Shown here: piece after piece, positions 21,957 to 63,945 of the stretch
Layout of the letters: every line of letters starts with the position of its first letter
Position numbering within the stretch: position 1 is the first letter of the stretch
Source: Pomacea canaliculata
Taxonomy: Eukaryota > Mollusca > Gastropoda > Architaenioglossa > Ampullariidae
Assembly: GCF_003073045.1 (NCBI RefSeq)
Contig: NC_037592.1
Location: 8,100,047-8,164,046 of the forward strand
Direction: 5' to 3'
Length of the DNA: 64,000 bases
Notes under the pieces: model-generated
Seen by the model: only the letters and a program-made list of their open reading frames with translations
Database searches by the model: none
Told to the model about the DNA's origin: nothing
Program-made: the position numbers and the translations under genes

Positions 21957-24920
21957 ATGGACTCGAAACAAGGTAAATAAATTAATTCAAATATTACTGG
22001 ACAGGAATCAAACCTCTTTTTTTTTATTCATAGAAAGTAAATTAAAGTTACAACAAATGATTTACAATTTGATTAAATTCTGAAATTTCACAACTTTTAA
22101 AAACTTGGCTGGAGCTGCATGATTGTTCGTGTCTCCTTCCCGTACATAAGATTCCAAATAATCGTCAAAGGGTTTAAGTGCCTGGACTTTCCGAGCGCCT
22201 TAGTACTTGGAGGAAAAGATAAGATGTTTTGGAGTGTTTGAGTAGGAGGAAAGAAAAAGGTTATACATCTGTTTGAATGTTCCTTGTTCTAAAATACTTT
22301 TGAACAGCTGTAAAGGGGGGGGGGGTTGGTTTTCTACGCCGTGCCAGCAACTGAGGCTATATTACGGCAAGCAGCCAGCCCTGTAAACAGATGAAAGAAC
22401 AGCGTGCCCGAGACGAGAAATGAACTCTGGGCAGCCAACCTTCACTGTATTGGTGACAGGTGCTAACCGTTGCGCCACCGGGCAGCTGAACAGCTGTAAA
22501 GAACGCCATAATAACATGCATAATTTGCAGCCAAATGATCTTATGTGTTTTATTATAATTATTTGTTGTTGTTGTCCTCTGAATAAACCTTATTAAGTCG
22601 ACTAAGTTGGATAAAACCGAATGTCACAACCTTGTCTAGGTGTCTGTAATGACGACAATCTCAAATTTTTAGATGATCGGTTTTCTCCAATATCTTCATC
22701 GGAGTCGATACCTGCAACGAATGTTTGAGTAAATACCATTAATCAGCGCTTTTTTTTCTCCTCCACAATCCCAACAAATCTTCTACAGCAATAATTCTTT
22801 ATAGACAGTTTTACGATTTATTGCAAGTCAGTGGAGTAAATGTCATTTTACGACAATCTGTATGTAAAGAATTGTCAAAAATCAAACTATGGAGTTATTA
22901 CAAACCCCGTCCCAAGTGAAATGATATTCTGAATTACTTCAACCTCTATCCGAAGTCGGACGGTTCAAACATTTCCGGTTTTTAATTTCCGTTTCCAGTT
23001 TTGCTGCGATAATACAAGAGACTAAGATAATACAAGACCCTTAACAGAAGTTTACTCACCCACCGCCTTTTTCAAGAGTTTCTCAACAATGATAGCAATG
23101 ATTTTTGCAAAAGGTGGATGGTGGTGTGTACAATGGCTAAAGTGTCGCAAAAACTAAAAACCACCAAGGCCTTAAAATCACTCTGTTCTATGAATTTCAA
23201 ATTTAAATTGCCGCATTTGTTTTATTACAATTCAAAACTAAATGTCCTTTTGTGACAGTAGCATAGTAATAAGTTGACATAAAACTACTTATACCTCGTT
23301 ATTTGTAATTAAAATGTTAATGCGAGGAGTGCATCACTTTAAACATCACTTTGCTGACATATGACGACTGTCAACCGCGGACCACCTGACTTATGCCCAT
23401 GGTCCGCGGACCACATTTTGAGAACCACTGCTGTAGCATTACTGTGAACGAGACTTTCCCTTGTTGACTCATCAGTAACAGTTGAGATGATGTTGTTTGC
23501 AACAGGTAACCAGTCCCGATATCCCCAGCAGGGGAACGCTGCACAACCACAGCAAGGCTACAGCTACAACCACAACTCTGCAGTCGTCGTAAGCAAACAC
23601 TTCTTTATTGTTTATTATTTTGCTTATTTTTCTGTTTTTATGTCGATTTATTCACCTTAATATTTATTTACAGGTTACTCAGCCAGTAACTGCAGTTCCA
23701 GTGGTGAACAGTGTGCCAGACAACATGGGCTTGGCTATCTTCACCACAATCTGCTGCTGTTGGCCGATCGGTCTTTTTGCCATCATGAAGGCATCCCAGG
23801 TGAGAGCCAAAGTATCTATAATCATTTTTGTTAAGGAGATTGATACGGGTCCACCGCAACCTAAATTATTAGAACATATTATATATTTATTTCTAGTGCT
23901 ATACCTACTCTTACTGAAGGGCAGTGAGCACAGAGGAGAAAAATGCTTCTCAGGCAAAGATCCATCTGAAATAAATTTTTGAATGATTGTGTATTATAAC
24001 GGCACCACAAAACACTTTCCAATGAGAAGTTCTTGGGGTTTTTTTTTAACCAAAAGGATGCCAGGTAATGCGCATTGGGCGAGGACTCCGCTAACTGTAG
24101 ATCAAACGACTGAATAGCGACAATTGAGTTGATGTGTGGTCATGCTGGAGAAAAAAATGTAGAGAAAGGCAACCGCAAGCAAAGTCTTTAATTTTTTTCG
24201 TGAGGTAAAAGATTAGGAAAAAAAGTTAAAGCTTATCAATGATCTCTATCTTAAGCAGAAATCACTGTAAACACAAGAAAAGCTCAGGGGAAAAAGAAGC
24301 TAATTTCGCAGGACTTTTTGAATGTCTTTTTACATAATGCCTTAGTCTATTAAATACCTCAAAGTTTTCCTCTGAGCTCGTACTGAGCCCGAGTAGTGAC
24401 AAATAACTAACAGGATAATAAATTGATTTTATCTGTGATCAAACCTCTCGACTAAAACGTGGCTTTGTTTCCATAGACGATACGATGAAATAGCAACGAC
24501 AAACTGAGAAGTACCAATAAACAAATATTCATTCGATAATCCTCAGTCCTCTTAGATCACAGATGGTGTGTGGATGTATAGGTTCATGAGTTCGATCGAC
24601 CGAGGTGATCAATTTTTAATAAAATCATATGCAAACGTCGAGGAGGGCTCAGACTTATCACGTCCCTCCGATACGTGGAGTGCGAATACATTACTATTTT
24701 CATCACTCCAGTCCTTTTTCCAGTCATCTCCCTTTCCCCTACCTTTACTGTGTGTGAAAGGGAAGTAAACCGAGACAACCAAGGATAACAAGTTGCAGGT
24801 AGAAGGGTTTCCGAGATACTCTGCAACTTTACATTGCATGCATGTACTGAAAAGACTTTCCAGTTTTGCGAGATGATGTAGATGTAGTAGTAGTAGTAGT
24901 AGTAGTAATAGTAGTAGTAG

Positions 24921-25009
<89 letters not shown>

Positions 25010-25703
25010 GGGCTTCTGCTTCTGCTAAGGCTAAATTCTTTGGGGAACCCTTCTTCAGATTTTTAAGGGGTCCCTGTTCTTCGCCCAAATTTGAAGGGGA
25101 CCCCATTGACGAAAATTGAAGGGGTCCTCCGAACTTTTAATGCGTACTGTAAGCAATTTTTGCGTAAGCAGAAACCCTGATAATAATAATAATACTTCCC
25201 AGTTCCAGTCACAGCTGAACTGCATGACCTGGTTGACTAGAGAGAGAGATGTCTGTACATTCCGATAGTTTTATACTGTGAGCATAGAGGGAGATGGCTG
25301 TGTTTGTGAGAGAGATGTGAGATAGAAAAGGAGTGAATGAGAGAAATAGTTTAGCAGGCAGTCATTTAAAGAGAAAAAGGACTAAAGTAGTTTGTGTTAT
25401 AATTTAAAATACTGGTGTAAGAAATAGTCAAACCACTCAAAAACACTCTTCAGTTCATGAAACCTAGCTATCGTAAAACAGAAAAAAGATAGAAGTTGGG
25501 GTTGGGGTGAAGGGAGGATGATACTACATGTTTATTTGTTTGTGTTCTGTGTGCAGTCCCGCACAGCCTTAGCATCAGGAGACACCCAACGAGCTCAGAA
25601 CTTAAGCCAGGAGTCTCGCCGCTTGTCCCTGGTTGCCATCGCATTTGGATGTGTCGCAATCGTCATTGTCATCATCGCAGCTGTCGTCTCGGCGACCATA
25701 TAA
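21957..25703 (+). CDS. CD225 (IFITM/dispanin-like) membrane protein, copy 1
   Basis: Predicted 123-residue membrane protein. Exons: 21957-21972 (MDSKQ), 23506-23588, 23674-23799, 25557-25703 (TAA). Residues 6-33 form a Gln/Tyr-rich cytosolic tail. Residues 34-75 carry the first hydrophobic helix, NMGLAIFTTICCCWPIGLFA, with a Cys triplet like the palmitoylated cysteines of IFITMs. Residues 76-123 carry the conserved loop (SRTALASGD..RAQ.LS.ESRRLS) and a C-terminal membrane helix rich in Val/Ile. The split between exons 3 and 4 falls at the same place in the CD225 domain as in vertebrate IFITM genes. Copy 1 ends SATI, has Gln instead of Glu before the last junction, and keeps a good promoter. 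ATTAAA at 25954 is a likely poly(A) signal. The most diverged intact gene on the left of the array; role inferred from the family only. Confidence 0.88.
22316..22486 (-). mobile_element. tRNA-derived SINE with perfect target-site duplication
   Basis: On the minus strand it begins with a tRNA-like head (GGTGGCGCAACGGTTAGCAC as A box, a GAGTTCATTTC B-box-like site), then GTTTACAGGGCTGGCT and a C-rich tail. It is flanked by TGAACAGCTGTAAAG at 22301-22315 and 22487-22501. Every other array copy has this 15-mer once, uninterrupted (for example near 27868, 33351, 49830), which proves the insertion. It lies in intron 1 of copy 1. Confidence 0.88.
23155..23430. mobile_element. hAT MITE fragment in intron 1 of copy 1
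   Basis: Paralogous introns run from GCAAAAACTAAA into other sequence; here a foreign block follows and ends TTTTGAGAACCACTG at 23430, the classic CAGTGGTTCTCAAA hAT terminus. A GGTCCGCGGACCAC palindrome lies just inside. No matching left terminus was found, so the copy is truncated. Confidence 0.6.
24885..25007. repeat. trinucleotide microsatellite (TAG)n/(TAA)n
   Basis: Runs of TAG then a long TAA run in intron 3 of copy 1. Related but differently composed tracts occupy the same place in copies 2-5. Confidence 0.9.
25008..25179. mobile_element. hAT-type MITE inserted in the (TAA)n tract
   Basis: Termini AAGGGCTTCTGCTT and, inverted, CAGGGTTTCTGCTT. ATAATAAT flanks both sides (25000-25007, 25180-25187), consistent with an 8 bp duplication, although the host tract is itself a repeat. 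Interior has palindromic AAGGGGTCC/GGGGACCCC pieces. 172 bp, no coding capacity. Confidence 0.7.
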
Positions 25704-26040: not shown

Positions 26041-27480
26041 GGTTCGCGGATGTCTGTACAAGGACATCCACGCCACCAAGTTTGGATGGTTTGGTAGTTA
26101 GGCGTGTGAAAGATATACAGAAAATTATCGTCGTAGGTGCTCAGGTTTTTGTATGGTCAGCGTGGTTGAAGTAAAGACACAACACACTTCTTCTGCAGAT
26201 TGATGAAGTCTGAACAGAATAATTATCAAGTTTGTTTTCTGGAAATAAAGATCTCTGAAAGTGAAAGGAAATGTTGATGCCGCCGTGGTATACCACGCTG
26301 CAACTTGAGGAGTCCATCGTCTTCTGTGAATTGTTACTTCCACATCACTCGCAGCTCTGTCTTTTAAAAACTTCACTCGAAACGATGCCAAAACTAAGAT
26401 TGAACACAGTTTTACTTGCTAATAATAAATGTTTCGACCACCATTTTGTAGTAAGTGCAAGTGATTCTACACACGTATCGATGAGACCATTTCGATTTGA
26501 GTGGGGTGAAGGTTATGTGTATACATTATTTTCCGAAATCGTCCATATGAGAACTTGGTCTTATCATATCATCCTGTTTGAATCTCATTAATTTTGAAGA
26601 CGTTGTAGTAGATTAGCCATGTGTAGAATTCACATAAACAATCCGATTACACTCTGTAAGTATTCTGTTTTCATGTTTGGGCAAGTTGACGATCAAGATA
26701 GTTTGATGACGCGATGACCTCTTCACGCTGTGTTCAAACTTCTCAAACAGGATGTATTGCCTGTGATCGAGGTTGCGAAATGTTTTGGACACAAAGGCTC
26801 GAGGACGTCTGTACACAGATATCAATGCCACCAATTTTGGATGGTTTGGTAGTTAGGGAAAGAAAATTATCATCTTATGTGCTTCAGGTTTTGTTTGGTC
26901 AGCGTGGTTGAAGTACAGACATAACACACCTGTTCTGCAGATTGATGAATACTGAACAGTATAATTATCAAGTATCTGCTGTATATTGCTGTTTTGTGGA
27001 AATAAAGATCTCTAAAAGTGAAAGGAGATGCTGATGCCGCCGTGGTATACCACGCTGCAACTTGAGGAGTCCATCGTCTTCTGTGAATTGTTAATTCCGC
27101 ATCACTCATAGCTTTCTCGCTAAAAAAAATTCACTAGAAACGATGTCAAAGCTAAGATTGAACTCAGTTTTATTATCTAATAATATATGTTTCGACCACC
27201 ATTTTGTAGTAAGCGTGCATGATACCATATACACCTCCGTTAAGACCATTTCAATTTGAGTGGGGTGAAGGTTTTATGTATACATTATTTTCCGAAATCG
27301 TCCATATGAGAACTTGGTCTTATCATATCATCCTGTTTGAACTGACTGGTGGGGACATTATAACATCACCAAGGAAAGAGTATGTCACAACCGGTGAGCA
27401 CTGGGAGGCGCGCGCAGCATGGAAGGGAAATCCGTGAGCTAAATACAGCAACGATCAACAGTTGCGACCAGCATATCGAT
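26040..27480 (+). repeat. upstream module present twice (26040-26600 and 26600-27480)
   Basis: The module that precedes the promoter of most copies (AGAATACAAAGGTTCGCGG ... TTTCGACCACCATTTTGTAG ... ATTTTCCGAAATCGTCCATA) occurs here in two tandem versions about 75-85 percent alike by eye. The second version resembles the one at 48490-49300. It contains no supportable gene. Confidence 0.7.
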
Positions 27481-27529: not shown

Positions 27530-30500
27530 ATGGACCCGAAACAAGGTAAATAAATTAATTCAAATATTACTGGACAGGAATCAAACCTCATTTTTTTAAT
27601 TCATAGAGAGTAAATTAAAGTTACAACAAATGATTTAGAATTTGATTAAATTCTGAAATTTCACAACTTTTAAAAACGTGGCTGGAGTTGCATGATTGTT
27701 CATGTCTCCTTCCCGTACGTAAGATTCCGAATAATCGTCAAAGGGTTTAAGTGCCTGGACTTTCCAGGTACATGGAGGAAAAGATAAGATGTTTTGGAGT
27801 GTTTGAGTAGGAGGAAAGAAAAAAGTTCTAAGTCTGTTTGAATGTTCCTTGTTCTAAAATACTTTTGAACAGCTGTAAAGAACACCATAATAACATGCAT
27901 GATTTGCAGCCAAATGATCTTATGTGCTTTATTATAATTATTTGTAGTTGTTATCCTCTGAGTAAATCTTATTAAGTCGACTAAGTTGGATAAAACCGAA
28001 TGTCACAACCTTGCCTAGGTGTCTGTAACGACGACAGTCTAAAATTTTAGATGATCGGTTTTCTCCAATATTTTCATCGGCGTCGATTCCTGCAACGAAT
28101 GTTTGAGCAAACACCATTAATCAGAGCTTTTTTTCTCCTCCACAATCCCAACAAATGTTCTACAGCAATAATTCTTTATAGACAGTTTTACGATTTATTG
28201 CAAGTCAGTGGAGTAAATGTCATTTTAAGACAATCTGTATGTAAAGAACTGTCAAAAATCAAACTATGGACTTCTTGTGAATACTGTTTCAGTGGTCTAG
28301 CCATTAGGCCTTCGATTACTAGCTCGTTTCCAGTTTTTCCTCCGTCTATATTTCTGATTCCATTCTCTCTCCCCAGCCACATTGTCACTCTCTCTTCTCG
28401 TCCCCTTCACTACTGGTGCACACCTTCAAAATTCTTTTTATTCAAAGGCTGGCGGGCTCAGTTTTTACAGTTTGCAGGCCATCTGCAGGACAGATTTCAA
28501 ATGAAAGATTGAAAGTAACAAGTACAGGAAAACAGGATTGTACCTGAGCATACTGAAATTGTTGAGGTCTGGCGAAAGGACGCACCGAGGCCTGACTCTC
28601 ACAAGATAACATGCAGTACAGTGTACACGCACGCACCCACACGGACAACCCTGGAAACAAATAAATCCCCAGGGCGCTGACATGAACGAATGTCGCAAGT
28701 GCTGGGCCATGTTTGATAAAGACAGACCCTGTATCCATTCCAGGTCATGTTCGATAAAGCCTGTAGGTGCCCACCTCGTTTAATCACGGGTGGTGGTCAC
28801 ACGCTCAATGACTCACAACTGAGCTGACGAGAAGCGAAAGCAAGTTCGCGAACTAAATCGACGAATTTTCTTTTTTCAACAAGACTGTTGATTGTACCAA
28901 GTTCGCAATTGTACTAAAGCTTGACATTTTAAGAAACATGCTATGCAGAGAAATAAATAAATAAATAAATTTGTAAGAGGTTCCATATATTATCTCAATT
29001 GAGATTCACTTGAAACACTCATGCGATACCCATACGTCCCGACTGTGTGTCCTTTGTGTTTATGAAATCAGAGACACCTCGAGTGCCCATCTTCTGTAAA
29101 ATGAAACGATGTATATCATCCAAGATGAGTACAACCGAAAATTCCCCTAAACGGACAGCCCTTGAAAAATTAAGCTGTCAGCCTGTCTCTCCTCCCTCCT
29201 GTTCTATGTTCTCTTGCATCTTATTTTCCATTGCGTATACGACGACAGTATATAGATCATCACATCGTTAGAACTATAATGAAGTGAATTACTGTAATTC
29301 TGCAGTAGTAACAATTACTGTGTGTTACTGATGTAGCTATATCTGTTACACAACTTGATGCATTCTCATACAGCTGCAACAATTATTGCCAGTTCATATA
29401 CTGTGAGAGTATAAGTTGTACTGTAGTTGTACCAGTTGTTGTGACATTTCTCTACTTCTAACTAATCCTCTAGCGGTGTAAACTGCTGTGAACTTATCAT
29501 GATGCTTTAGCATTACTGTCAACGAGACTTTCCCTGTTGACTCATCAGTAACAGTTGGGGTGATGTTGTTTACAACAGGTAACCAGCCCGGATATCCCCA
29601 GCAGAGGTACGCTGTACAACCACAGCAAGGCTACAGCTACAACCACTCTACAGTCATCGTAAGCAAACCCACTTTTTTTATTGTTTATTATTTTGCTTAT
29701 TTTTCGGTTTTTATGTCGATGTATTCACCTTAATATTTATTTACAGGTTACTCAACCAGTAGCCGCCGTTCCAGTTGTTCACAGTGTGCCAGACCACATG
29801 GGCTTGGCTATCTTCACCACACTCTGCTGCTGTTGGCCGATCGGACTTTTTGCCATCATGAAGGCATCCGAGGTGAGAGCCAAAATATCTATAATCATTT
29901 TTGTTAAGGAGATTGGTACGGGCCCTCCGCAACCTAAATTAATAGAACATTTTATATATTCATTTCTAATGCTATACTACTCGTACTGAAGGGCAGTGAG
30001 CACAGAGGAGAAAAATGCTTCTCAGGCAAAGATCATTACATCTGAAATTCATTTTTGAATGACTGTGTCATAACGGGACCACAAAACACTCTCAATGAGA
30101 AGTTCTTGAATTTTTATTTTAAAAAAAAACAAGCAAACAAAAAAAAAAAAACCACCAGGATGCCAGGTAATGCGCATTGGCGAGAACTCCGCTAACTGTA
30201 GATCAAACGACTGAATAGCGACAATTGAGTTGATGTGTGGTCATGCTGGAGAAAAAAATGTAGAGAGAGTAACCGGAAGGAAAGTCTTTAAATTTTTTCA
30301 TGACGTAGAAGATTCGAAAAAGAAGTTAAAGCTTATCAGTGATAGCTATCTTAAGCAAAATCACTGTAAACACAAGCAAAGCTCAAGGTGAAAAAAACTA
30401 ATGTCGCAGCACTGTTTGAATGTCTTTTTAAATAATGCGTTAGTTTATTAAATAGCTCAAAGTTTAACTCTGAGCTCGTACTGAGCCTGAGTAGTGACAA

Positions 30501-31736
30501 ATAACTAACATGATAATAAACTGATTTTATCTGTGATCAAACCTCTCGACTAAAACGTAGTTTTGTTTTCATAGACGATACGATGAAATAACAACGACAA
30601 ACTGAGTCAGAAACGACCTCATGGGGAAGGTGCCAATAAAAAAATATTTATTCGATAATCATCAGTCCCTTAAATCACAGATCGTGTGCGGATATATAGG
30701 TTCATGAGTTCGATCAACCGAGGTGATCATTTTTTAATAAAAACATGAGCAAACGTCGAGGAGGTTCAGACTTCTCACGTCCTCCGATACGTGGAGTGCG
30801 GATACATCACTATTTTCATCACTCCAGCCTTTTTCCAGTCATCTCCCTTTCCCTACCCTTACTAGTGAAAGGGAAGTAATCATGTGCTTGTTCAGAATGC
30901 GACGGGTAAAGCAGACAACCAAGGATAAGAGAAGTTGCAGGTACAAGGGTTGCCGAGATACTCTGCAACTTTACATTGTAACATGTACTGAATAGACTTT
31001 CTCTCCAGTTTCGCGAGATGTAGTAGTAGTAATAATAATAATAGTAGTAGTCGTAATAAAAATAATAATCATAATGACGACGACGACGACGACGATGACG
31101 ACGATGATGATGATGATGATAATGATGATAATAATATACATGCATGCATGGACTGAACAGACTTTCTCTCCAGTTTCGCGAGTATTATTATTATTATTAC
31201 TACTACTACTAATACTACTACTACTACTTCCAGTTCCAGTCACAGCTGAACTGCATGACCTGGTTGACTAGAGAGAGAGATGTCTGTACATTCCGATAGT
31301 TTTATACTGTGAGCATAGACGGAGATGGGTGTGTGTGAGAGAGATGTGAGATAGAAAAGGGGTGAAACGAGAGAGATAGTTTAGCAGGAAGTCATTCAAA
31401 GAGAAAAAGGACTAAAGTAGTTTGTTATAAATTTAAAATACTGAAGTGTAAGAAATAGTCAAACCACTCAAAAACACTCTTCAGTTCATGAAACCTAGCT
31501 ATCGTAAAACAGAAAAAAGATAGAAGTTGGGTTGGGGTGAAGGGAGGATGATACAAGATGTTTATTTGTTTGTGTTCTGTGTGCAGTCCCGCACTGCCTT
31601 AGCATCAGGGGACTTCCAACGAGCTCAGACCTTAAGCCAGGACTCTCGCCGCTTGTCCCTGTTTTCCATCGCCGGTGGATGTGTCTCAATCGTCATTGTC
31701 ATCATCGTAGTTGTCACCATGGTCACCAGTAATTAA
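27530..31736 (+). CDS. CD225 (IFITM/dispanin-like) membrane protein, copy 2
   Basis: 123 residues. Exons: 27530-27545 (MDPKQ), 29579-29658, 29747-29872, 31587-31736 (TAA). Tail residues 6-32 (QPGYPQQRYAVQPQQGYSY); CD225 first helix GLAIFTTLCCCWPIGLFAIM; loop SRTALASGDFQRAQTLSQDS; second helix rich in Val/Ile, ending TMVTSN. It differs from copy 4 by His for Asn just before the first helix (PDHMG versus PDNMG). Exons 2-4 belong to the first of three almost identical 4.5 kb units, whereas exon 1 lies in an older, diverged block. The core promoter block is deleted, so expression is doubtful although the reading frame is intact. Poly(A) signal ATTAAA at 31989. Confidence 0.85.
31020..31240. repeat. 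trinucleotide microsatellite cluster in intron 3 of copy 2
   Basis: TAG, TAA, GAC/GAT and TAC runs, with ACTTTCTCTCCAGTTTCGCGAG present on both sides of part of the cluster. The same composite lies at 35540-35745 and 40062-40273. Confidence 0.85.
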
Positions 31737-32689: not shown

Positions 32690-32870
32690 CAAGGGAAAAC
32701 CGTGAGCTAAATTTAGCAGCGAGCTACACGACCAGCGATTGGTTGAGGTCCGTGGGGAGGTTTGAGACTTAAGTACAGACCACCCCAGACACCCGACAAC
32801 AGTTGCGAACAGCATCTCGATCTGATCCCTGATCTTTACTGGAGTTTTTTGTGGTTTCTTTGCCAGTCAA
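32690..32870 (+). promoter_or_regulatory. core promoter and 5' UTR of CD225 copy 3
   Basis: Full block: GGGAAAACCG, inverted CCAAT (ATTGG 32738-32742), TATA-like ACTTAAGTA and leader. Confidence 0.6.
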
Positions 32871-35800
32871 ATGGACCCGAAACAAGGTAAATAAATTATT
32901 TCAAATATTACTGGACAGGAATCAAACCTCTTTTTTTTAATTCATAGAGAGTAAATTAAAGTTACAACAAATGACACAATTTGATTTAATTCTGACATTT
33001 CACAACTTTTAAAAACTTGGCTGGAGTTGCATAATTGTTCATGTCTCCTTCCCGTACATAAGATTCCAGATAATCGCCAAAGGTTTAAGTGCCTGTACTT
33101 TCCGAGCACCTTAGTACTTGGAGGAAAAGATAAGAACGATCGTCTACCCTAGGTCTATGATATTTTACAACTAGTAAAATAACTGCACGAGAATCCATCA
33201 AGCTGTGCAGTGCTGTGAAGTTTTCCTAATTTTGTTGGCTTTTGTTTGTTGCGATATTTGGTACGTTATTTGCATGTTTAGTGTTTGAGTAGGAGGAGAG
33301 AAAAAGTTGATAAACCTGTTTGAATAAGTTCCTTGTTCTAAAATACTTTTGAACAGCTGTAAAGAACGCCATAATAACAGGAATAATTTGCAGCCAGATG
33401 CTCTTCTGTGCTTCCTTATAATTATAAGTAGTTGTTATAATCTGAATAAATCTTATTAAGTCGACTAAGTCATAACAAACCCTGTCCCAAGCCAGATGAT
33501 ATCTTTAATTACTTCAACATTATCCGAAGTCTGACGCGTGAAACATTTCCTGTTTTTAATTTCCGTTTATGTTAATAAAATTAGAGACACCTCCAGTGCC
33601 CCATTTTCTGTAAAATGAAACGATGTATATTGCTGAAGATAGGTACAACCTAAAACTCCCCTAAACGGACAGCCTGTGAAAAATTAAGCTGTCAGCCTGT
33701 CTCTCCTCCCTCCTGTTCTATGTTCTCTTGCATCTTATTTTCCATTGCGTATACGACGACAGTATATAGATCATCACATCGTTAGAACTATAATGAAGTG
33801 AATTACTGTAATTCTGCAGTAGTAACAATTACTGTGTGTTACTGATGTAGCTATATCTGTTACACAACTTGATGCATTCTCATACAGCTGCAACAATTAT
33901 TGCAGTTCATATACTGTGAGAGTATAAGTTGTACTGTAGTTGTACCAGTTGTTGTGACATTTCTCTACTTCTAACTAATCCTCTAGCGGTGTAAACTGCT
34001 GTGAACTTATCATGATGCTTTAGCATTACTGTCAACGAGACTTTCCCTGTTGACTCATCAGTAACAGTTGGGGTGATGTTGTTTACAACAGGTAACCAGC
34101 CCGGATATCCCCAGCAGAGGTACGCTGTACAACCACAGCAAGGCTACAGCTACAACCACTCTACAGTCATCGTAAGCAAACCCACTTTTTTATTGTTTAT
34201 TATTTTGCTTATTTTTCGGTTTTTATGTCGATGTATTCACCTTAATATTTATTTACAGGTTACTCAACAGTAGCCGCCGTTCCAGTTTGTTCACAGTGTG
34301 CCAGACAACATGGCTTGGCTATCTTCACCACACTCTGCTGCTGTTGGCCGATCGGACTTTTTGCCATCATGAAGGCATCCGAGGTGAGAGCCAAAATATC
34401 TATAATCATTTTTGTTAAGGAGATTGGTACGGCCCTCCGCAACCTAAATTAATAGAACATTTTATATATTCATTTCTAATGCTATACCTACTCGTACTGA
34501 AGGGCAGTGAGCACAGAGGAGAAAAATGCTTCTCAGGCAAAGATCATTACCATCTGAAATTCATTTTTGAATGACTGTGTCATAACGGGACCACAAAACA
34601 CTCTCCAATGAGAAGTTCTTGAATTTTTATTTTAAAAAAAAACAAGCAAACAAAAAAAAAAAAAACCACCAGGATGCCAGGTAATGCGCATTGGGCGAGA
34701 ACTCCGCTAACTGTAGATCAAACGACTGAATAGCGACAATTGAGTTGATGTGTGGTCATGCTGGAGAAAAAAATGTAGAGAGAGGTAACCGGAAGGAAAG
34801 TCTTTAAATTTTTTCATGACGTAGAAGATTCGAAAAAGAAGTTAAAGCTTATCAGTGATAGCTATCTTAAGCAAAAATCACTGTAAACACAAGCAAAGCT
34901 CAAGGTGAAAAAAACTAATGTCGCAGCACTGTTTGAATGTCTTTTTAAATAATGCGTTAGTTTATTAAATAGCTCAAAGTTTAACTCTGAGCTCGTACTG
35001 AGCCTGAGTAGTGACAAATAACTAACATGATAATAAACTGATTTTATCTGTGATCAAACCTCTCGACTAAAACGTAGTTTTGTTTTCATAGACGATACGA
35101 TGAAATAACAACGACAAACTGAGTCAGAAACGACCTCATGGGGAAGGTGCCAATAAAAAAATATTTATTCGATAATCATCAGTCCCCTTAAATCACAGAT
35201 CGTGTGCGGATATATAGGTTCATGAGTTCGATCAACCGAGGTGATCATTTTTTAATAAAAACATGAGCAAACGTCGAGGAGGGTTCAGACTTCTCACGTC
35301 CCTCCGATACGTGGAGTGCGGATACATCACTATTTTCATCACTCCAGCCTTTTTCCAGTCATCTCCCTTTCCCCTACCCTTACTAGTGAAAGGGAAGTAA
35401 ATCATGTGCTTGTTCAGAATGCGACGGGTAAAGCAGACAACCAAGGATAAGAAGTTGCAGGTACAAGGGTTGCCGAGATACTCTGCAACTTTACATTGTA
35501 ACATGTACTGAATAGACTTTCTCTCCAGTTTCGCGAGATGTAGTAGTAGTAATAATAATAATAGTAGTAGTCGTAATAAAAATAATAATCATAATGACGA
35601 CGACGACGACGACGATGACGACGATGATGATGATGATGATAATGATGATAATAATATACATTGCATGCATGGACTGAACAGACTTTCTCTCCAGTTTCGC
35701 GAGTATTATTATTATTATTACTACTACTAATACTACTACTACTACTTCCCAGTTCCAGTCACAGCTGAACTGCATGACCTGGTTGACTAGAGAGAGAGAT

Positions 35801-36256
35801 GTCTGTACATTCCGATAGTTTTATACTGTGAGCATAGACGGAGATGGGTGTGTGTGAGAGAGATGTGAGATAGAAAAGGGGTGAAACGAGAGAGATAGTT
35901 TAGCAGGAAGTCATTCAAAGAGAAAAAGGACTAAAGTAGTTTGTGTTATAATTTAAAATACTGAAGTGTAAGAAATAGTCAAACCACTCAAAAACACTCT
36001 TCAGTTCATGAAACCTAGCTATCGTAAAACAGAAAAAAGATAGAAGTTGGGTTGGGGTGAAGGGAGGATGATACAAGATGTTTATTTGTTTGTGTTCTGT
36101 GTGCAGTCCCGCACTGCCTTAGCATCAGGGGACTTCCAACGAGCTCAGACCTTAAGCCAGGACTCTCGCCGCTTGTCCTGTTTTTCCATCGCCGGTGGAT
36201 GTGTCTCAATCGTCATTGTCATCATCGTAGTTGTCACCATGGTCACCAGTAATTAA
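32871..36256 (+). pseudogene. CD225 membrane protein copy 3, frameshifted as read
   Basis: Exons: 32871-32886 (MDPKQ), 34092-34171, 34259-34383, 36107-36256. Relative to copies 2 and 4, exon 3 has three single-base indels (one C lost near 34267, one T gained near 34286, one G lost near 34313), making it 125 bp and giving a stop right after VTQQ. Exon 4 has a paired loss and gain in TCC/TGTTTT that only changes Leu to Cys. All changes sit in homopolymers within almost identical repeats, so assembly or polishing error is a serious alternative to true decay. Promoter and splice sites are intact. Confidence 0.75.
35540..35745. repeat. trinucleotide microsatellite cluster in intron 3 of copy 3
   Basis: Same composite TAG/TAA/GAC/GAT/TAC tract as in copies 2 and 4. 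Confidence 0.85.
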
Positions 36257-37204: not shown

Positions 37205-37387
37205 TGCAAGGGAAAACCGTGAGCTAAATTTAGCAGCGAGCTACACGACCAGCGATTGGTTGAGGTCCGTGGGGAGGTTTGAGACTTAAGTACAGACCAC
37301 CCCAGACACCCGACAACAGTTGCGAACAGCATCTCGATCTGATCCCTGATCTTTACTGGAGTTTTTTGTGGTTTCTTTGCCAGTCAA
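37205..37387 (+). promoter_or_regulatory. core promoter and 5' UTR of CD225 copy 4
   Basis: Same block as copy 3, with ATTGG near 37255 and ACTTAAGTA about 30 bp further on. Confidence 0.6.
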
Positions 37388-49311: not shown

Positions 49312-49494
49312 GGAAGGGAAATCCATGAGCTAAATTTAGCAGCGAGCTACACGACCAGCGATTGGTTGAAGTCCGTGAGGAGGCTTGAGACTTAAGTACC
49401 GACCGTAACAGACACCCGACAACAGTTGCGACCAGCATCTCGATCTGTTCTCTGATCTTTACTGAAGTTTTTTTGTGGTTTCTTTGCCAGTCAA
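49312..49494 (+). promoter_or_regulatory. core promoter and 5' UTR of CD225 copy 6
   Basis: GGGAAATCCATGAGCTAAATTT, inverted CCAAT (ATTGG near 49361), ACTTAAGTA and leader all present. Confidence 0.6.
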
Positions 49495-52400
49495 ATGGAC
49501 CCGAAACAAGGTAAATAAATTACTTCAAAATTACTGGACAGGAATCAAACTTCTTTTTTTTTAATTGATAGAAAGTAAATTAAAGTTACAACAAATGATT
49601 TAGAATTTGATTAAATTCTGAAATTTCCCAATTTTTAAAAACTTGGCTGGAGTTGCATGATTGCTCATGTCTCCTTCCCGTACATAAGATTCCGAATAAT
49701 CGTCAAAGGGTTTAAGTGCCTGGACTTTCCAGGTACATGGAGGAAAAGATAAGATGTTTTGGAGTGTTTGAGTAGGAGGAAAGAAAAAAGTTCTAAGTCT
49801 GTTTGAATGTTCCTTGTTCTAAAATACTTTTGAACAGCTGTAAAGAACACCATAATAACATGCATGATTTGCAGCCAAATGATCTTGTGTGCTTTATTAT
49901 AATTATTTGTAATTGTTATCCTCTGTGTAAACCTTATTAAGTCGACTAAGTTGGATAAAACCGAATGTCACAACCTTGTCTGGGCGTCTGTAATGACGAC
50001 AATCTCAAATTTTAGATGATCGGTTTTCTCATCTTCATCGGAGTCGATTCCTGCAACGAATGTTTAAGCAAATACCATTAATCAGAGCTTTTTTTCTCCT
50101 CCACAATCCCAACAAATGTTCTACATCAATAATTCTTTATAGACAGTTTTACGATTTATTGCAAGTCAGTGGAGTAAATATCATTTTACGACAATCTGTA
50201 TGTAAAGAACTGTCAAAAATCAAACTATGGACTTCTTGTGAATACTGTTTCAGTGGTCTAGCCATTAGGCCTTCGATTACTAGCTCGTTTCCAGTTTTTC
50301 CTGTATCTATATTTCTGATTCCATTCTCTTACTTCTTCTCCCCAGCTACATTGTCACTCTCTCCCCTTCTCTACGGGTGCACACCTTAAAAATTCTTTTT
50401 ATTCAAAGGCTGGCGGGCTCAGTTTTTACAGTTTGCAGGCCATCTGCAGGACAGATTTCAAAGGAAAGATTGAATGTAACAGATAGAGGAAAACAGGATT
50501 GTACCTGAGCATACTGAAGTTGTTGAGGTCTGGCGAAAGGACGCACCGAGGCCTGACTCTCACAAGATAACATGCAGTACAGAGTGCACGCACGCACGCA
50601 CCCACACGGACAACCCTGGAGGCCACTCAATCCCCAGGGCGCTGACATGAACGGATGTCGCAAACGCTGGGCCATGTTTGATAAAGACAGACCCTATATC
50701 CATTCCAGGTCATGTTCGATAAAGCCTGTAGGTGCCCCCCTCTTTTAATCACGGGTGGCGGTCACACGCTCAATGACTCAAAACTGGTTTGATGAGCGTT
50801 AAAATATTAACAATAAATTGTCCGTCCTTCCCACGCTAACCGTACGGCTGAAAGCACTTGGCTGTTTTTCTGGAAATCTCTTAAATTAGCAAAAATTTGG
50901 TTCATGTTACATAAGCAGTCCATATCAAGCCAATTCGAGACGGGAGACCTCTAGGGCAGATCTGGGCAAGGGGCGGCCCGCGGGCCGCATCCGGCCCGCC
51001 TCCTGTCTCTGACCGGCCCGCCCGATGGGAGCCCGCCAATATATTTACTATATATACAGTATCGGGTAAAACTGAGTTAACTATATTAGTCCGGCCCTCT
51101 AAAACCATCCCAATTTCTCATGCGGCCCCTTGGGAAAATTAATTGCCCACCCCTGCTCTAGGGTATCTTCCAACTTTTTAAATTCTATTTTAGCTTTTGT
51201 TTCGATTCATACATTCGAGACAGCTACTGCTGATCTTTAGAGATTGCCTCCGGGACACAGCGAAAGTACACAGGGAATGAAGGGATGGTGGAAAACTAAA
51301 TAGGCGGTTAGAGATTGAGAAGAAATCAGCAAAATGTAAAATGCAAAGACTGTCGGGAAAAAAACCAAGAAACTAATTTTGTGTCTAAAGAGTTGACACA
51401 TGGACATATCGTCGACACGGGCTGTATAGATTCCGACTTCTTGCTGCTACTACTACTTTTACTTTATAATTGACAGTGATGGGATTGATGTTTTGCAGCA
51501 AATCAGCAGATGTGGTTGCATTTTCTTCAAAACGTTTGCCTTTTTCAACAACAAAAAAAAAATTTGGTTTTGACCAAAGATCAAGGATCCTTTTTGTTTC
51601 AACTAATGATCACATTTACTATAAACTTTCGCTTGGCCGTCATTGGTAGCTTGGATATTCCAATCCCTTGCTCCGCATAAATCAACAACTGCAATCTTCG
51701 CCCAAGGAACCTTAATTGGGACAAAAAAGGAAAAGGACAAACAACTGTGATACATTCGTGACACAGGAGTCATTACAAACCCTGTCCCAAGACAAATGAT
51801 ATCTTGAATTACTTCAACCTCTATCCGAAGTCTGATGTGTCAAACATTTCCGGTTTTTAATTTCCGTTTCCAGTTTTGCTGCGATAATACAAGAGACTAA
51901 GATAATACGAGAGCCATAACAGAAGATTACTCACCCACCGCCTTTTTCAAGAGTTTCTCAACAATGATAGCAATGATTTTTGCAAACGGCGGATGGTGGT
52001 GTGTACCATGGAAAAAGTGTCGCAAAAACTAAAGATACAATATTCAGGATGGAAAAACCTTTGTAGGAGACCGAATAACTAGGCACCTACACTGAGGTCG
52101 TCAACATCTGCATCTTCTGCGAGAAGCGAAATCAAATTCAAGATACCAGACTGAGAACTGAATGGATATAGTGTGGCAAAAACAAAAATACAATAGTCAG
52201 GATGGACAAGAGGTGACCTTCTTTGTGTGACACTGAATAACTATATAGACACCTACAGTGTGGTCATCAACATCTACACTGAGATTTACCACCGGATGTA
52301 TTGCGAGAAGCCAAGGCGAGTTAATGAACTGAATCGACAATTTTTTTTTTTCAACAGGACTGTTGATTGTACCAAGTTAGTGATTGTACTAAAGCTTGAC

Positions 52401-53778
52401 ATTTTAAGAAACATGCTATGCAGAGCAATAAATAAAAATAAATAAATAAATAAACTCGTTAGAGGTTCCATATATCATCTCAATTGAGATTCAGTTGAAA
52501 CTGTCATGCGAAACTCATATGTCCCGACTGTGTCCTTTGTGTTTATGAAATTAGAGACACCTCGAGTGCCCCATTTTCTGCAAAAATGAAACGATGTATT
52601 TTGTTCAAGATGTTGTAAAATTCCCCTAAACCGACAGCCCGTGAAAAATTAAGTTGTTTGGTAAGTCTGTCTCTCCCTCTCTCCCTTTTTGTGTCCTCTT
52701 GCATCTTATTTCTCATCACATATACGACGACAGTATATTGACAGTCATATCACTAGAACTATAATGAAGTGACCCACTGTAATTCTGCAGCTGTAACAAT
52801 TACTGTGTTACTGATGTAGCTATATCTGTTACACAACTTGCTGCATTCTCATACAGCTGCAACAATTATTGCGAGTTTATATACTGTGAGAGTATAAGTT
52901 GTACTGTACTTGTACCAGTTGTTGTGACATTTCTCTCCTTCTAATCCTCTAGCTGTACATCTGTAAGTTTGTAAGTTTGTAAGTTATCATGATGCTCTAG
53001 CATTACTGTCAACGAGACTTTTCCCTGTTGACCCATCAGTAACAGTTGGGGGGATGTCTTGACGGGCTTTGCAGCAGGGAACCAGCCCGAATATCCCCAG
53101 CAGGGGTACGATGGAGGGTACGCTTCGCTACCTGGGTATGTTGCACAACCGGGGTACGCTGCACAACCGGGGTACACTGTACAACCACAGCAAGGCCACA
53201 GCTACAACCACTCTGCAGTCGTCGTAAGCAAACCCACTTTTTTATTGTTTATTTTTTTTCTTTTTTCGGTTTTTATGTCGATTTATTCACCTTAATATTT
53301 ATTTATAGGTTACTCAGCCAGTAGCCGCCATTCCAGTGGTGAACAGTGTGACAGACAACATGGGCTTGGCTATCTTCACCACAATCTGCTGCTGTTGGCC
53401 GATCGGACTTTTTGCAATCATGAAGGCATCCGAGGTGAGACTCAAAATATCTATAACCGTCTTTGTTAAGGAGATTGGTATGGATCCACCGCAACCTAAA
53501 TTAGTAGAACATACTATATATTCATTTCTAGTGCTATACCTACTCTTACTGAAGGGCAGTGAGCACAGATACAAGATGTTTATTTGTTTGTGTTCTGTGT
53601 GCAGTCACGCACAGCCTTAGCATCAGGGGACTTCCAACGAGCTCAGACCTTAAGCCAGGAGTCTCGCCGCTTGTCCCTGTTTTCCATCGCCGGTGGATGT
53701 GTCTCAATCGTCATTGTCATCATCGCAGTTGTTGTCTCGATCACCAATAGAAGTAGTGACTACTACTATAGTTACTGA
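49495..53778 (+). CDS. CD225 (IFITM/dispanin-like) membrane protein, copy 6
   Basis: 153 residues, the longest member. Exons: 49495-49510, 53078-53223, 53309-53434, 53605-53778 (TGA). Exon 2 is expanded and encodes serial PGY units (SLPGYVAQPGYAAQPGYTVQ). Exon 3 has the usual FTTICCCWPIG helix, with Thr for Pro in SVTDNMG. Exon 4 encodes the loop, the second helix and a Tyr-rich cytosolic or luminal end (SITNRSSDYYYSY). Intron 3 is only 170 bp because a deletion joins GGGCAGTGAGCACAG directly to the ATACAAGATG before exon 4; in the copies 1-5 it exceeds 1 kb. Intron 1 is 3.6 kb and holds a hAT MITE. Promoter complete; the ATTAAA of copies 1-4 is changed to ATTTAAA. Confidence 0.88.
50956..51155. 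mobile_element. hAT-type MITE with 8 bp target duplication
   Basis: Ends CAGATCTGGGCAA and (inverted) CAGGGGTGGGCAA; exact flanking duplication CTCTAGGG at 50948-50955 and 51156-51163. 200 bp, GC-rich interior (GGCCCGCGGGCC palindrome). In intron 1 of copy 6. Confidence 0.92.
52428..52455. repeat. (AAAT)n microsatellite
   Basis: Short ATAAATAAATAAATAAA tract in intron 1 of copy 6; equivalents at 28950-28971 and 58079-58115 vary in length. Confidence 0.85.
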
Positions 53779-54074: not shown

Positions 54075-54082
54075 TTTTAGAG

Positions 54083-55984: not shown

Positions 55985-56168
55985 AAGGGAAATCCGTGAG
56001 CTAAATTTAGCAGCGAGCTACACGAGCAGCGATTGGTTGAAGTCCGTGGGGAGGTTTGAGACTTAAGTACCGACCGTAACAGACACCCGACAACAGTTGC
56101 GACCAGCATCTCGATCTGTTTGTTCCCTGATCTTTACTGAAGTTTTTTGTGGTTTCTTTGCCAGTCAA
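55985..56168 (+). promoter_or_regulatory. core promoter and 5' UTR of CD225 copy 7
   Basis: GGGAAATCCGTGAGCTAAATTT, ATTGG near 56032, ACTTAAGTA and leader present. Confidence 0.6.
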
Positions 56169-58079
56169 ATGGACCAGAAACAAGGTAAATAAATTACTTC
56201 AAAAATTACTGGACAGGAATCAAACTTTTTTTTTAATTCATAGAAAGTAAATTAAAGTTACAACAAATGACAGAATTTGATTAAATTTGATTAAATTCTG
56301 AAATTTCACAACTTTTAAAAACTTGGCTGGAGCTGCATGATTGTTCATGTCTCCTTCCCGTACATAAGGTTCCAGATAATCGCCTATTTGCATGTTTGGT
56401 GTTTGAGTAGGAGGAGAGAAAAAGTTGATAAACCTGTTTGAATAAGTTCCTTGTTCTAAAATACTTTTGAACAGCTGTAAAGAACGCCATAATAACAGGA
56501 ATAATTTGCAGCCAGATGCTCTTCCATGCTTCCTTATAATTATAAGTAGTTGTTATAATCTGAATAAATCTTATTAAGTCGACTAAGTTGGATAAAACCG
56601 ATGGTCACAACCTTGCCTAGGTGTCTGTAATGACGACAGTCTCAAATTTTAGATGATCGGTTTTCTCATCTTCATCGGAGTCGATTCCTGCAACGAATGT
56701 TTTAGCAAATACCATTAATCAGCGCTTTTTTTTTCTCCTCCACAATCCCAACAAATCTTCTAAGATCAATAATTCTTTATAGACAGTTTTACGATTTATT
56801 GCAAGTCAGTGGAGTAAATGTCATTTTACGACAATCTGTATGTAAAGAACTGTCAAAAATCAAACTATGGACTTCTTGTGAATACTGTTTCCGTGGTCTA
56901 GCCATTAGGCCTTCGATTACTAGCTCGTTTCCAGTTTTTCTTCGTCTATATTTCTAATTCCATTCTCTTACTTCTTCTCCCCAGCCACATTGTCACTCTC
57001 TCCTTCTTGTCCCCTCCTTACTGTTTGCACACCTTAAAAATTCTTTTCATTCAAAGGCTGGCGGGCTCAGTTTTTACAGTTTGCAGGCCATCTGCAGGAC
57101 AGATTTCAAAGGAAAGATGGAATGTAACAGGTAGAGGAAAACAGGATTGTATCTGAGCATACTGAAGTTGCGAGGGCTGACTCTCACAAGGATAACATGC
57201 AGTACAGAGTGCACGCGCGCACCCACATGGACAACCGTGGAAGCCACCCAGGGCGATGACATGAACGGATGTCGCAAACGCTGGGCCATGTTTGATAAAG
57301 ACAGACCCTGTATCTATTCCAGGTCATGTTCGATAAAGCCTATGGTGCAGATATCGTCATTGGTAGCTTTGAGATTCCTATCCCTTGCTCCGCATAAATC
57401 AACAACTGCAATCTTCGCCCAAGGAAGCCTTACATGTGACAAAAAAAAGGAAAAGGACAAACAACAATTGTGATAGATTCGTGACACAGGAGTTATTACA
57501 AACCCTGTCCCAAGCGAAATGATATCTTGAATTACTTCAACCTCTATCCGAAGTCTGATGCGTCAAACATTTCCGGTTTTTAATTTCCGTTTCCAGTTTT
57601 GCTGCGAAAATACAAGAGACTAAGATAATACAAGAGCCATAACAGAAGATTACTCACCCACCACCTTTTTCAAGAGTTTCTCAACAATGATAACAATGAT
57701 TTTTGCAAAAGGCGGATGGTGGTGTGTACAATGGCTAAAATGTCGCAAAAACTAAAGATACAATATCCAGGATGGAAAAGCCTTTGTAGGACACTGAATA
57801 ACTAGGCACCTATACTGAGGTCGTCAACATCTGCACTGATTTATTTCTGCATCTTATTCGAGAAGCGAAATCGAATTCAAGATACCAGACTGAGAACTGA
57901 ATGGATATAGTGTGGCAAAAACATAAGATACAAGAGTCAGGATGGACAAGAGGTGACCTTCTTTGTGTGACACTGAATAACTATATAGACACCTACGTCT
58001 GGTCATCAACATCTGCACTGAGATTTACCACCGGATGTATTGCGAGAAGCCAAGACGAGTTCGTGAACTGAATCGACAA

Positions 58080-58114
<35 letters not shown>

Positions 58115-60025
58115 ATTCGTTAGAGTTCCATATATCATCTCAATTGAGATTCAGTTGAAACTCTCACGCGAAACTCATATGTCCCGACTGTGTCCTTTGT
58201 GTTTATGAAATCAGAGACATCTCGAGTGCCCCATTTTCTGCAAAAATGAAACGATGTATATTGTTCAAGATGAGTACAACCGAAAATTCCCCTAAACGGA
58301 CAGCCCGTGAAAAATTAAACTGTTTGTCAGTCTGTCTCTCCCTCTCTCCCTTTTTGTGTGCTCTTGCATCTTATTTCTCATCACATATACGACGACAGTA
58401 TATTGACAATCATATCACTAGAACTATAATGAAGTGACCCACTGTAATTCTACAGCTGTAACAATTATTGTGTGTTACTGATGTAGCTATATCTGTTACA
58501 CAACTTGCTGCATTCTCATACAGCTGCTAACAATTATTGCCAGTTTATATACTGTGAGAGTATAAGTTGTACTGTAGTTGTACCAGTTGTTGTGACATTT
58601 CTCTACTTCTAACTAATCCTCTAGCTGTACATCTGTAAGTTTGTAAGCTATCATGATGCTCTAGCATTACTGTGAACGAGACTTTTCCCATCACTAACAC
58701 TTGGGGGGATGTCTTGACGGGCTTTGCAGCAGGTAACCAGCCCGAATATCCCCAGCAGGGGTGCGATGGAGGGCACGCTTCGCTACCGGGGTATGTTGCA
58801 CAACCGGGGTATGCTGTACAACCACAGCAAGGCCACAGCTACAACCACTCTGCAGTCATTGTAAGCAAACCCACTTTTTTATTGTTTATTATTTTTCTTA
58901 TTTTTCGGTTTTTATGTCGATTTATTCACCTTAATATTTATTTACAGGTTACTCAGCCAGTAGCCGCCATTCCAGTGGTACACAGTGTGCCAGACAACAT
59001 GGGCTTGGCTGTCTTCGCCACAATCTGCTGCTGTTGGCCGATAGGAATTTTTGCCATCATGAAGGCATCCGAGGTGAGACTCAAAGTATCTATAATGGTT
59101 TTTGTTAAGGAGATTGGTATGGGTCCACCGCAACTTAAATTAGTAGAACATATTATATATTCATTTCTAGTGCTATACCTATTCTTACTGAAGGGCAGTG
59201 AGCACAGAGGAGAAAATGCTTCTCAGGCAAAGATCATTACCATCTGAAATAAATTTTTGAATGATTGTGTATCATAACGGGACCACAAAACACTTTCCAA
59301 TGAGAAGTTCTTGGATTTTTATTTTTAAAAAAAAAGGATGCCAGGACTCCGCTAACTGTAGATCAAACGACTGAATAGCGACAATTGAGTTGATGTGTGG
59401 TCATGCTGGAGAAAAAAATGTAGAGAGAGGCAACCGGAAGCGAAATCTTTAATTTGTTTAGCGATGATGATGATGATAAATTAATAATAATGAATGTTTC
59501 CCAGTTCCAGTCACAGCTGGTTGACTAGAGGGAGATGGCTGTACATTCCGATAGTTTTATACTTTGAGCATGGAGGGAGATGGGTGTGTGAGAAAGGGAG
59601 AAAGAAAGAGAGATGTGAGATAGGGGTGGAATGAAAGAGATAGTTTAGCAAGCATTCATTCAAAGAGAAAAAGGACTAAAGTAGTTTGTGTTATAATTTA
59701 GAATACTAAAGTGTAAGAAATAGAGTCAAACCACTAGAACAAACACTCTTCAGTGCATGAAACCTAACTATCGTAAAACAAAAAAAGAAGTTGGGTTGGG
59801 GTTGAAGAGAGGATGATACAAGATGTTTATTTGTTTGTGTTCTGTGTGCAGTCCCGCACAGCCTTAGCATCCGGGGACTTCCAACGAGCTCAGACCTTAA
59901 GCCAGCAGTCTCGCCGCTTCGCCCTGTTTTCCATCCTCGGTGGAATTGGCTCAGTCATCATTGTCATCATCTCAGTTGTTGTGAGGATCAACAACAGAAG
60001 TAGTTACTACTACAATAGTTACTGA
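56169..60025 (+). CDS. CD225 (IFITM/dispanin-like) membrane protein, copy 7
   Basis: 147 residues. Exons: 56169-56184 (MDQKQ), 58733-58860, 58948-59073, 59852-60025 (TGA). The tail is of the expanded type (CDGGHASLPGYVAQPGYAVQ). The first helix reads LAVFATICCCWPIGIFAIM, keeping the Cys triplet. The loop is SRTALASGDFQRAQTLSQQS followed by RRFALFSILGG instead of RRLSLFSIAGG. The second helix has a charged VVVRINNRSS end and the tail SSYYYNSY. Intron 3 is 778 bp. Promoter present. It is closest to copy 6 in layout. The poly(A) region has lost the ATTAAA seen in copies 1-4. Confidence 0.87.
58079..58115. repeat. (AAAT)n microsatellite in intron 1 of copy 7
   Basis: About nine AAAT units, replacing sequence present between CGACAAT and the repeat in copy 6. 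Confidence 0.9.
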
Positions 60026-63330: not shown

Positions 63331-63334
63331 AATA

Positions 63335-63729
63335 ATAAAATGTTTCAACGACCATTTTGTAATAAGCAGACATGAAAATACACACGTATGGGCGAAACCA
63401 TTTCAGTGTGAGGGGGGTGAAGGTTCTGTCCATACAACATTTTCCGAAACGTCCGTAGGCGAACTTGATGTTATCATCATCTTTGAACAGGTTAGCGCCG
63501 TCACTAATACATTGAGGGTTGGCTGTCCTGGGTTCACCTCTCGTCTTAGACACGCTGTTTTTTCTTTGCTTGTAGAATTTGTTTACAGGGCTGACTGCTG
63601 TGCCGTGATGTAGCCTCGGTTGATTACAACACCAATTACATCCTCACCTCTGATGTTAGTGACGTTACAGCGGTTACCAAGGAGGGCGTACGTCATAGCC
63701 GGCGGCCACTGGGTGGCGCGCGCAGCGTT
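63335..63729 (+). repeat. diverged upstream module of CD225 copy 8
   Basis: Shares TTTCAACGACCATTTTGTA, ACCATTTCAGTGTGAG, ATTTTCCGAAACGTCC and the GGCGCGCGCAGCG element with other modules, at clearly lower identity; it is interrupted by a SINE. Confidence 0.65.
63488..63640 (+). mobile_element. tRNA-derived SINE in the module of copy 8
   Basis: GGTTAGCGCCGTCACTAATA head, TGGGTTCACCTCTCG B-box region, GTTTACAGGGCTGACTGC and GTAGCCTCGGTTG body; same family as 22316-22486. Confidence 0.75.
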
Positions 63730-63929
63730 CAAGGGAAATCCGTGAGCTAAATATAGCAGCGAGCTACACGGCCAGCGATTGGTTGAAGTCGTGCGTCAGA
63801 TTGTGACTTAAAGTACCGACCACCACAGACACCCGACAACAGTTGCGCCACAGCCAGCAACCATATCGCCTGTTCGCTGATCTTTACAGTCCATTTTATT
63901 TTTGTTGGCGGAACGTATCTGTCAGTCAA
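63730..63929 (+). promoter_or_regulatory. core promoter and 5' UTR of CD225 copy 8
   Basis: GGGAAATCCGTGAGCTAAATA, ATTGG near 63778, ACTTAAAGTA and leader present; the leader is the most diverged of the set. Confidence 0.6.
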
Positions 63930-63945
63930 ATGGAGGAGAAACAAG
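63930..63945 (+). CDS. CD225 copy 8, exon 1 only (runs out of the window)
   Basis: ATG with MEEKQ and a GTAAGC donor at 63946, in the same promoter context and phase as the other exon 1 copies. Exons 2-4 must lie to the right. It differs in protein start (Glu-Glu) and in intron 1, consistent with an older copy. Confidence 0.75.

Follow-up and report, generated by a model that had tools for sequence, protein, structure and literature searches.

A tandem array of PRRT1-like CD225 genes in the gastropod Pomacea canaliculata

Proteins carrying the CD225 domain have become known above all from vertebrates, in which one branch of the family is antiviral and another synaptic. A stretch of 64,000 nucleotides (nt) of the Pomacea canaliculata genome (contig NC_037592.1, positions 8,100,047 to 8,164,046 of the forward strand; hereafter the window) contains a row of CD225 genes on the + strand, which raises the question of the branch to which these genes belong and of what so many copies might do in a snail. 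An initial annotation, made from the letters alone, had described at least eight CD225 genes of the IFITM/dispanin type in an invertebrate, and had interpreted them as a lineage-specific expansion that may act in membrane defence. The tandem array is real, its host is indeed a gastropod, and the expansion is recent, lineage-specific and of a known family. Judged by sequence, however, the array genes are closer to PRRT1 than to IFITM and group with gastropod PRRT1-like proteins. This particular array was not found in the literature searched.

Within the window the array extends from the first base of unit 1 (21957) to the end of exon 1 of unit 8 (63945), and consists of seven four-exon genes arranged head to tail and followed by an eighth exon 1; the eight exon 1 copies and seven sets of exons 2-4 first described were thus all found where they had been placed (Table 1). 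The four-exon plan also stood, with an AG acceptor and a GT donor at every internal boundary, save that exon 3 of unit 3 (125 nt) is out of frame and that a candidate second terminal exon of unit 5, termed exon 4a, had been missed. Exons 1 to 4 measure 16, 80-146, 126 (125 in unit 3) and 147-174 nt, respectively. Exon 1, with 16 coding nt in phase 1, encodes MDxKQ (MEEKQ in unit 8) and, together with exon 2, whose product is a tail rich in Gly, Tyr, Gln and Pro, precedes the CD225 exons. Exon 3 corresponds to the Cys-rich first helix and exon 4 to the loop and second helix; in units 1-12 the start of exon 4 immediately precedes (S/A)R, so that an intron interrupts the loop that joins the two helices. 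The GDxQRAQ loop motif is present in all seven exon 4 copies of units 1-7 and the second helix of the window models is rich in Val and Ile, both as originally reported, and the Cys triplet holds for the intact window models with the exception of unit 5 (FFCC).

Database proteins of P. canaliculata accounted for seven of the ten matches found, all seven lying on the same contig as the array and being named "proline-rich transmembrane protein 1-like" or C0Q70_04841, _04843 and _04847. Two of them match a unit model exactly, P0005 that of unit 2 and P0006 that of unit 1, and another two (P0001 and P0002) correspond to those of units 7 and 6 with one extra Ala after MDxKQ, which fits a tandem (NAGNAG) alternative acceptor at exon 2. 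Two other database entries are apparently artefacts of annotation, P0003 fusing exons 1-3 of unit 4 with exon 4 of unit 5, and P0007 skirting the break in unit 3.

When DNA was fetched for 46 kb past the window end (combined stretch of 110 kb), the array was seen to comprise 12 units on one strand, reaching about 93016 in window coordinates and covering about 71 kb. The count of at least eight genes and the lineage-specific tandem expansion were both borne out. Exon 3 of units 8-12 lies at 69052, 76849, 83701, 87926 and 92078 (window coordinates). Units 1-8 form a subclass A and units 9-12 a subclass B, whose first-helix motif is CCFWPIG (FCFWPIG in unit 10) and whose exon 2 is extended at its start, with PPAN (units 9 and 10) or PPAS (unit 12) where relatives carry PPxY. 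The loop GD is kept in units 1, 2 and 4-8 and altered in subclass B sequences to GY (units 9, 11 and 12), RY (unit 10) or GS (exon 4a). Complete open models were obtained for unit 8 (with an inner exon 2 acceptor), unit 9 and unit 10 (exon 4 from 84723); in this assembly, units 3, 11 and 12 are broken. In unit 8, the DNA at 68682-68736 (window coordinates) contains a PPAY-coding stretch as found in other snails, out of frame with the remaining exon 2, hence the inner acceptor is probably the one used.

An exon-wise search of the P. canaliculata genome (440 Mb, 24 contigs) gave at least 36 CD225 matches, a lower bound, 12 of which are the exon 3 copies of this array. Elsewhere in the genome, contig C10 (16.18-16.34 Mb, L021-L027) carries a second CD225 cluster, much more diverged and in both orientations, with first helices of the CFCPIG or FLNLI type, and the matches on contigs C1 and C9 (L015, L016 and L017) encode the two helices within a single open frame and seem to lack the loop intron.

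The assignment to the CD225/dispanin family proved sound. The Pfam model CD225 (PF04505, curated cut-off 27.1 bits) was matched by all six intact joined models of the window with 71-76 bits (E from 1e-19 to 3e-21), and by the four further models (units 8, 9 and 10, and unit 5 with exon 4a) with 62-69 bits. The hallmarks of the domain, a double Cys in helix 1 and an Asp before it, are present, the exception being unit 10 with its single Cys (FCF). A closeness to IFITM, in turn, found no support. In searches of the PDB, PRRT1 of entry 9zks was the sole CD225 match (E 1e-13 with a single sequence, 1.8e-29 with a profile), and its identity across the CD225 block is 46% with unit 7 and 43% with unit 2, compared with 25-29% between these units and the mammalian IFITM rows that matched. 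The cysteines are followed by Trp in 22 of 22 non-IFITM rows of the alignment and in none of the five IFITM rows, IFITMs having no WP pair. A tree of 27 rows was built from 20 of the 63 relatives in the database, 5 of the 120 IFITMs listed, unit 5 and the fragment of PRRT1. In it the six Pomacea rows group with Littorina, Babylonia and the relative P0011 (96/97), all five IFITM rows fall into a clade of their own (100/99) with the array outside, and the Lottia rows, paired at 100/100, stand as a lineage by themselves; 14 of the 24 inner branches of this tree are open and its deep forks are mostly not settled.

Gene structure gives the same indication. According to PMC3282796, a conserved loop intron is a feature of the CD225/dispanin superfamily; dispanins of the PRRT1/SynDIG type, vertebrate PRRT1 included, combine it with extra N-terminal exons, whereas the IFITM type has two exons; the loop intron and the additional N-terminal exons of the array therefore agree with the former types and not with the latter. 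Further features shared with PRRT1/SynDIG4 (dispanin subfamily D, including the PRRT1-like protein of Littorina saxatilis and a relative from Babylonia areolata) are a CD225 domain with CCxWPxG, a Pro/Gln/Tyr-rich tail and an Arg six residues ahead of the Gly of GD. The array differs from them in its 12 tandem units, in having 58-97 residues of tail ahead of the Cys motif, in the loss of the Asp of GD in subclass B, and at two positions discussed below. Multi-copy CD225 genes had already been recorded in other gastropods, namely 10 proteins in Aplysia (PMC9334734) and Lottia genes with the neighbouring locus numbers LOTGIDRAFT_234301 and _234302.

The residue corresponding to Gly95 of IFITM3 is relevant to function, as this glycine, part of a GxxxG motif, was reported to be necessary for oligomerisation and restriction, with human G95W/R variants losing part of their activity and PRRT2 G305W/R being loss-of-function changes (PMC7665892). 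Its equivalent is Arg in all six subclass-A rows and in none of the 21 other rows of the alignment, the three closest relatives having Ala or Ser and PRRT1 having Ser. This argues against the array being an arms-race expansion of IFITM3-like restriction factors, whose products would form oligomers, make the membranes of endosomes stiffer and prevent viruses from entering, as does its tree position apart from the IFITM clade. Such a role would be favoured by the tandem expansion, the retained Cys motif and the Arg equivalent to IFITM3 R85, found in nine of nine array models and regarded in IFITM3 as the centre of a proposed R-SNARE-like motif (PMC11730294); adjacent cysteines and gene clustering are also features of IFITM1-3 (dispanin subfamily A). 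It would be favoured as well by the fast evolution of helix 2 in subclass A and the conserved promoter site presented below, and by the paper on the Aplysia immunome (PMC9334734), in which the IFITM/dispanin proteins are counted with the antiviral genes on the basis of their domain. The IFITM3-like YxxPhi signal, on the other hand, occurs in only one of nine array models, though the three closest relatives (P0011, P0012 and P0015) do not have it either, and no viral-challenge report for the array genes was found in the literature searched. On balance, restriction of the IFITM3 kind seems quite unlikely. A role in membrane defence in the wider sense, as put forward by the initial annotation, is possible, and is kept alive by the subclass-A helix-2 data and the promoter site, neither of which constitutes proof.

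PRRT1 is the closest characterised relative of the array and an AMPA-receptor auxiliary factor (PMC11798926), and by analogy the array proteins might be auxiliary subunits of the SynDIG4/PRRT1 kind that, in neurons or sensory cells, control the pools of glutamate receptors, or of receptors of another type, at the surface and in endosomes. However, a PPxY motif within the first 60 residues, present in 20 of the 36 relatives whose tail is of sufficient length, among them the three closest, is absent from the six intact window models (unit 8 has PPGY further in), and a dozen fast-evolving copies would, in our judgement, be unusual for a synaptic component. This explanation is accordingly regarded as unlikely.

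The divergence among the copies provides additional clues. In a maximum likelihood codon analysis of subclass A (units 1, 2, 5, 6, 7 and 8), the ratio of nonsynonymous to synonymous rates (omega) was 3.2 for helix-2 codons 25-46 (p = 0.009), rising to 4.7 without unit 1 (p = 0.005), and 0.34 for the loop codons (p = 0.049); exon 3 gave about 0.6 and its 27-codon core 0.77, neither being significant. The helix-2 nonsynonymous rate exceeded that of the 3' noncoding flank in five of five pairs tested (p from 0.00004 to 0.029). When the independent pairs 1-2 and 6-7 were pooled, change was counted at 24.5 of 103 nonsynonymous helix-2 sites against 36 of 522 sites in the flank (p = 3e-6). Synonymous sites showed no excess over the flank (p = 0.33), and nonsynonymous change exceeded synonymous change (p = 0.045).

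The subclass-A promoters have in common the sequence GGGAAA(A/T)CC, which we take to be similar to a Rel/NF-kB site. It occurs eight times on both strands of the 110 kb, once per subclass-A promoter and 105-197 nt upstream of the ATG, and was not found before units 9-12. The strict Rel/NF-kB consensus had no match within the window, and the looser GGG(A/T)4CC occurs at five additional places. Since the promoter copies share descent, the kB-like site must be counted as one conserved element and not as eight independent events. An inverted CCAAT box is present in seven of the eight promoters.

The explanation that we favour, and hold to be probably correct, albeit with appreciable reservation, is that of a lineage-specific tandem array of 12 PRRT1-like CD225 (dispanin) genes over about 71 kb, likely encoding regulators of vesicle fusion or of cargo trafficking. 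Intact units would encode small single-pass type II membrane proteins, with a cytosolic tail rich in Pro, Gly, Tyr and Gln, a palmitoylated and membrane-inserted Cys-rich first helix, a basic loop with an R-SNARE-like central Arg and, finally, a single transmembrane helix; type II topology and palmitoylation are given as dispanin family features in PMC11798926, and are here attributed by analogy. The most probable sites of action of these proteins would be the plasma membrane and endosomes, where binding of SNAREs or cargo could allow them to regulate the fusion of vesicles or the trafficking of cargo. The copies, and with them one hybrid unit, would have arisen through repeated unequal crossing-over, and selection would have altered the transmembrane helix among the subclass-A copies, perhaps diversifying their partners. 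A bolder, rather doubtful extension is that a PRRT1-type trafficking protein became, independently of vertebrate IFITMs, a multi-copy diversifying immune or barrier repertoire, devoid of the Gly-dependent oligomerisation motif and of PPxY, varying in its transmembrane helix and controlled by Rel/NF-kB in one subclass, with a possible choice between two terminal exons in unit 5.

A number of observations weigh against this account of a diversifying trafficking array. The predicted structure is poor (mean predicted local distance difference test score, pLDDT, of 61). The helix-2 partition was picked after inspection of the data; with codons 25-48, twice the log-likelihood difference (2dlnL) is 4.75 (p about 0.03), the count of helix-2 changes (28.5 nonsynonymous, 6.5 synonymous) gives a one-sided p of 0.05-0.08, and the whole of exon 4 is indistinguishable from omega 1 (2dlnL 0.52, five sequences). 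Gene conversion of the flanks could also mimic part of the contrast between helix 2 and flank. In subclass B (units 9, 10 and 12, and exon 4a) omega was 2.0 for helix 2 (p = 0.25) and 2.3 for the loop (p = 0.16), and as neither is significant the pattern confined to helix 2 was not replicated: exon 4 again outpaced exon 3, whose omega in units 9-12 was 0.31 (p = 0.051), with no repetition of the contrast between loop and helix 2. These results for exon 4 and subclass B, together with the three broken units out of 12 and the fact that helix-2 replacements are mostly swaps of hydrophobic or small residues, could be read as those of a drifting array of no special function, in which unequal crossing-over maintains the copies and helix 2 merely stays hydrophobic. 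Relaxation, however, allows omega to rise up to 1 and not to 3, and the low omega of the subclass-A loop reveals constraint within the same exon, which leaves drift an improbable explanation.

Units 2-4 are, moreover, almost identical, meaning that the exact copy number depends on the assembly. Over 4513 aligned nt, units 3 and 4 differ by five substitution columns (in two short runs) and 15 indels, 13 of one base, 12 of these in homopolymers. Control pairs presented many substitutions and few one-base indels (73 and 2 for units 1 and 4, 78 and 3 for units 1 and 3, 41 and 0 for units 6 and 7). Such excess of homopolymer indels over few substitutions suggests that the break in unit 3 is probably a residual sequencing error in a near-identical repeat. 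It would also fit the array being in part an assembly artefact, with units 3 and 4, and perhaps 2, representing a single locus counted repeatedly. The homopolymer excess recurs between units 2 and 4 (18 of 19 one-base indels) and between units 2 and 3 (22 of 23, with 26 substitutions). Nevertheless, unit 2 differs from unit 4 by 20 substitutions as well, and the distinct units 1, 5, 6, 7, 8, 9 and 10 stand regardless of units 2-4. Repeated counting is thus considered unlikely.

The crossing-over invoked for the origin of the array may have left a trace in unit 5. Exon 4a, located in intron 3 of this unit, has an AG acceptor and 49 open codons, and its first 132 nt are 89%, 86% and 78% identical to exon 4 of units 12, 9 and 10, respectively, against 66-74% for the subclass-A exons. 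Being nearer to subclass-B exons, it makes unit 5 a hybrid, for which unequal crossing-over inside intron 3 would be the best account. Joined to exons 1-3 it scores 67 bits with CD225; neither AATAAA nor ATTAAA was found in the 349 nt downstream of exon 4a.

As for the remaining sequence, the spacer of units 1 and 2 contains a local 0.55-kb duplication (26036-26582 and 26791-27341, 84% identical). Upstream of the array and on the same strand, exons of a NUP160-like nucleoporin gene occupy positions 458-9901 (Pfam Nup160 middle TPR, E 5e-16 and 3e-13, with weaker flanking pieces), and between these pieces lies, also on the + strand, a hAT-type transposase piece (3749-4654; Dimer_Tnp_hAT, E 3e-4, just under the cut-off).

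Table 1. Array exons and kB-like promoter sites, in window coordinates.
Feature	Position	Strand	Remark
Unit 1 kB-like site	21779..21787	+	GGGAAA(A/T)CC
Unit 1 exon 1	21957..21972	+
Unit 1 exon 2	23506..23588	+
Unit 1 exon 3	23674..23799	+	Cys-rich first helix
Unit 1 exon 4	25557..25703	+	loop, second helix
Unit 2 kB-like site	27425..27433	+
Unit 2 exon 1	27530..27545	+
Unit 2 exon 2	29579..29658	+
Unit 2 exon 3	29747..29872	+
Unit 2 exon 4	31587..31736	+
Unit 3 kB-like site	32693..32701	+
Unit 3 exon 1	32871..32886	+
Unit 3 exon 2	34092..34171	+
Unit 3 exon 3	34259..34383	+	125 nt, frame broken as assembled
Unit 3 exon 4	36107..36256	+
Unit 4 kB-like site	37210..37218	+
Unit 4 exon 1	37388..37403	+
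Unit 4 exon 2	38613..38692	+
Unit 4 exon 3	38781..38906	+
Unit 4 exon 4	40632..40781	+
Unit 5 kB-like site	41737..41745	+
Unit 5 exon 1	41915..41930	+
Unit 5 exon 2	43164..43261	+
Unit 5 exon 3	43349..43474	+
Unit 5 exon 4a	44503..44652	+	candidate second terminal exon, subclass-B type, in intron 3; open frame, AG acceptor
Unit 5 exon 4	45077..45250	+	subclass-A type
Unit 6 kB-like site	49316..49324	+
Unit 6 exon 1	49495..49510	+
Unit 6 exon 2	53078..53223	+
Unit 6 exon 3	53309..53434	+
Unit 6 exon 4	53605..53778	+
Unit 7 kB-like site	55987..55995	+
Unit 7 exon 1	56169..56184	+
Unit 7 exon 2	58733..58860	+
Unit 7 exon 3	58948..59073	+
Unit 7 exon 4	59852..60025	+
Unit 8 kB-like site	63733..63741	+
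Unit 8 exon 1	63930..63945	+	exons 2-4 outside window

A young array of the PRRT1 branch in a mollusc offers a test of whether clustered, fast-evolving CD225 expansions recur outside the IFITM branch. It also supplies natural variants at Gly95, PPxY and GD, positions that are known or suspected to be important in the human relatives.

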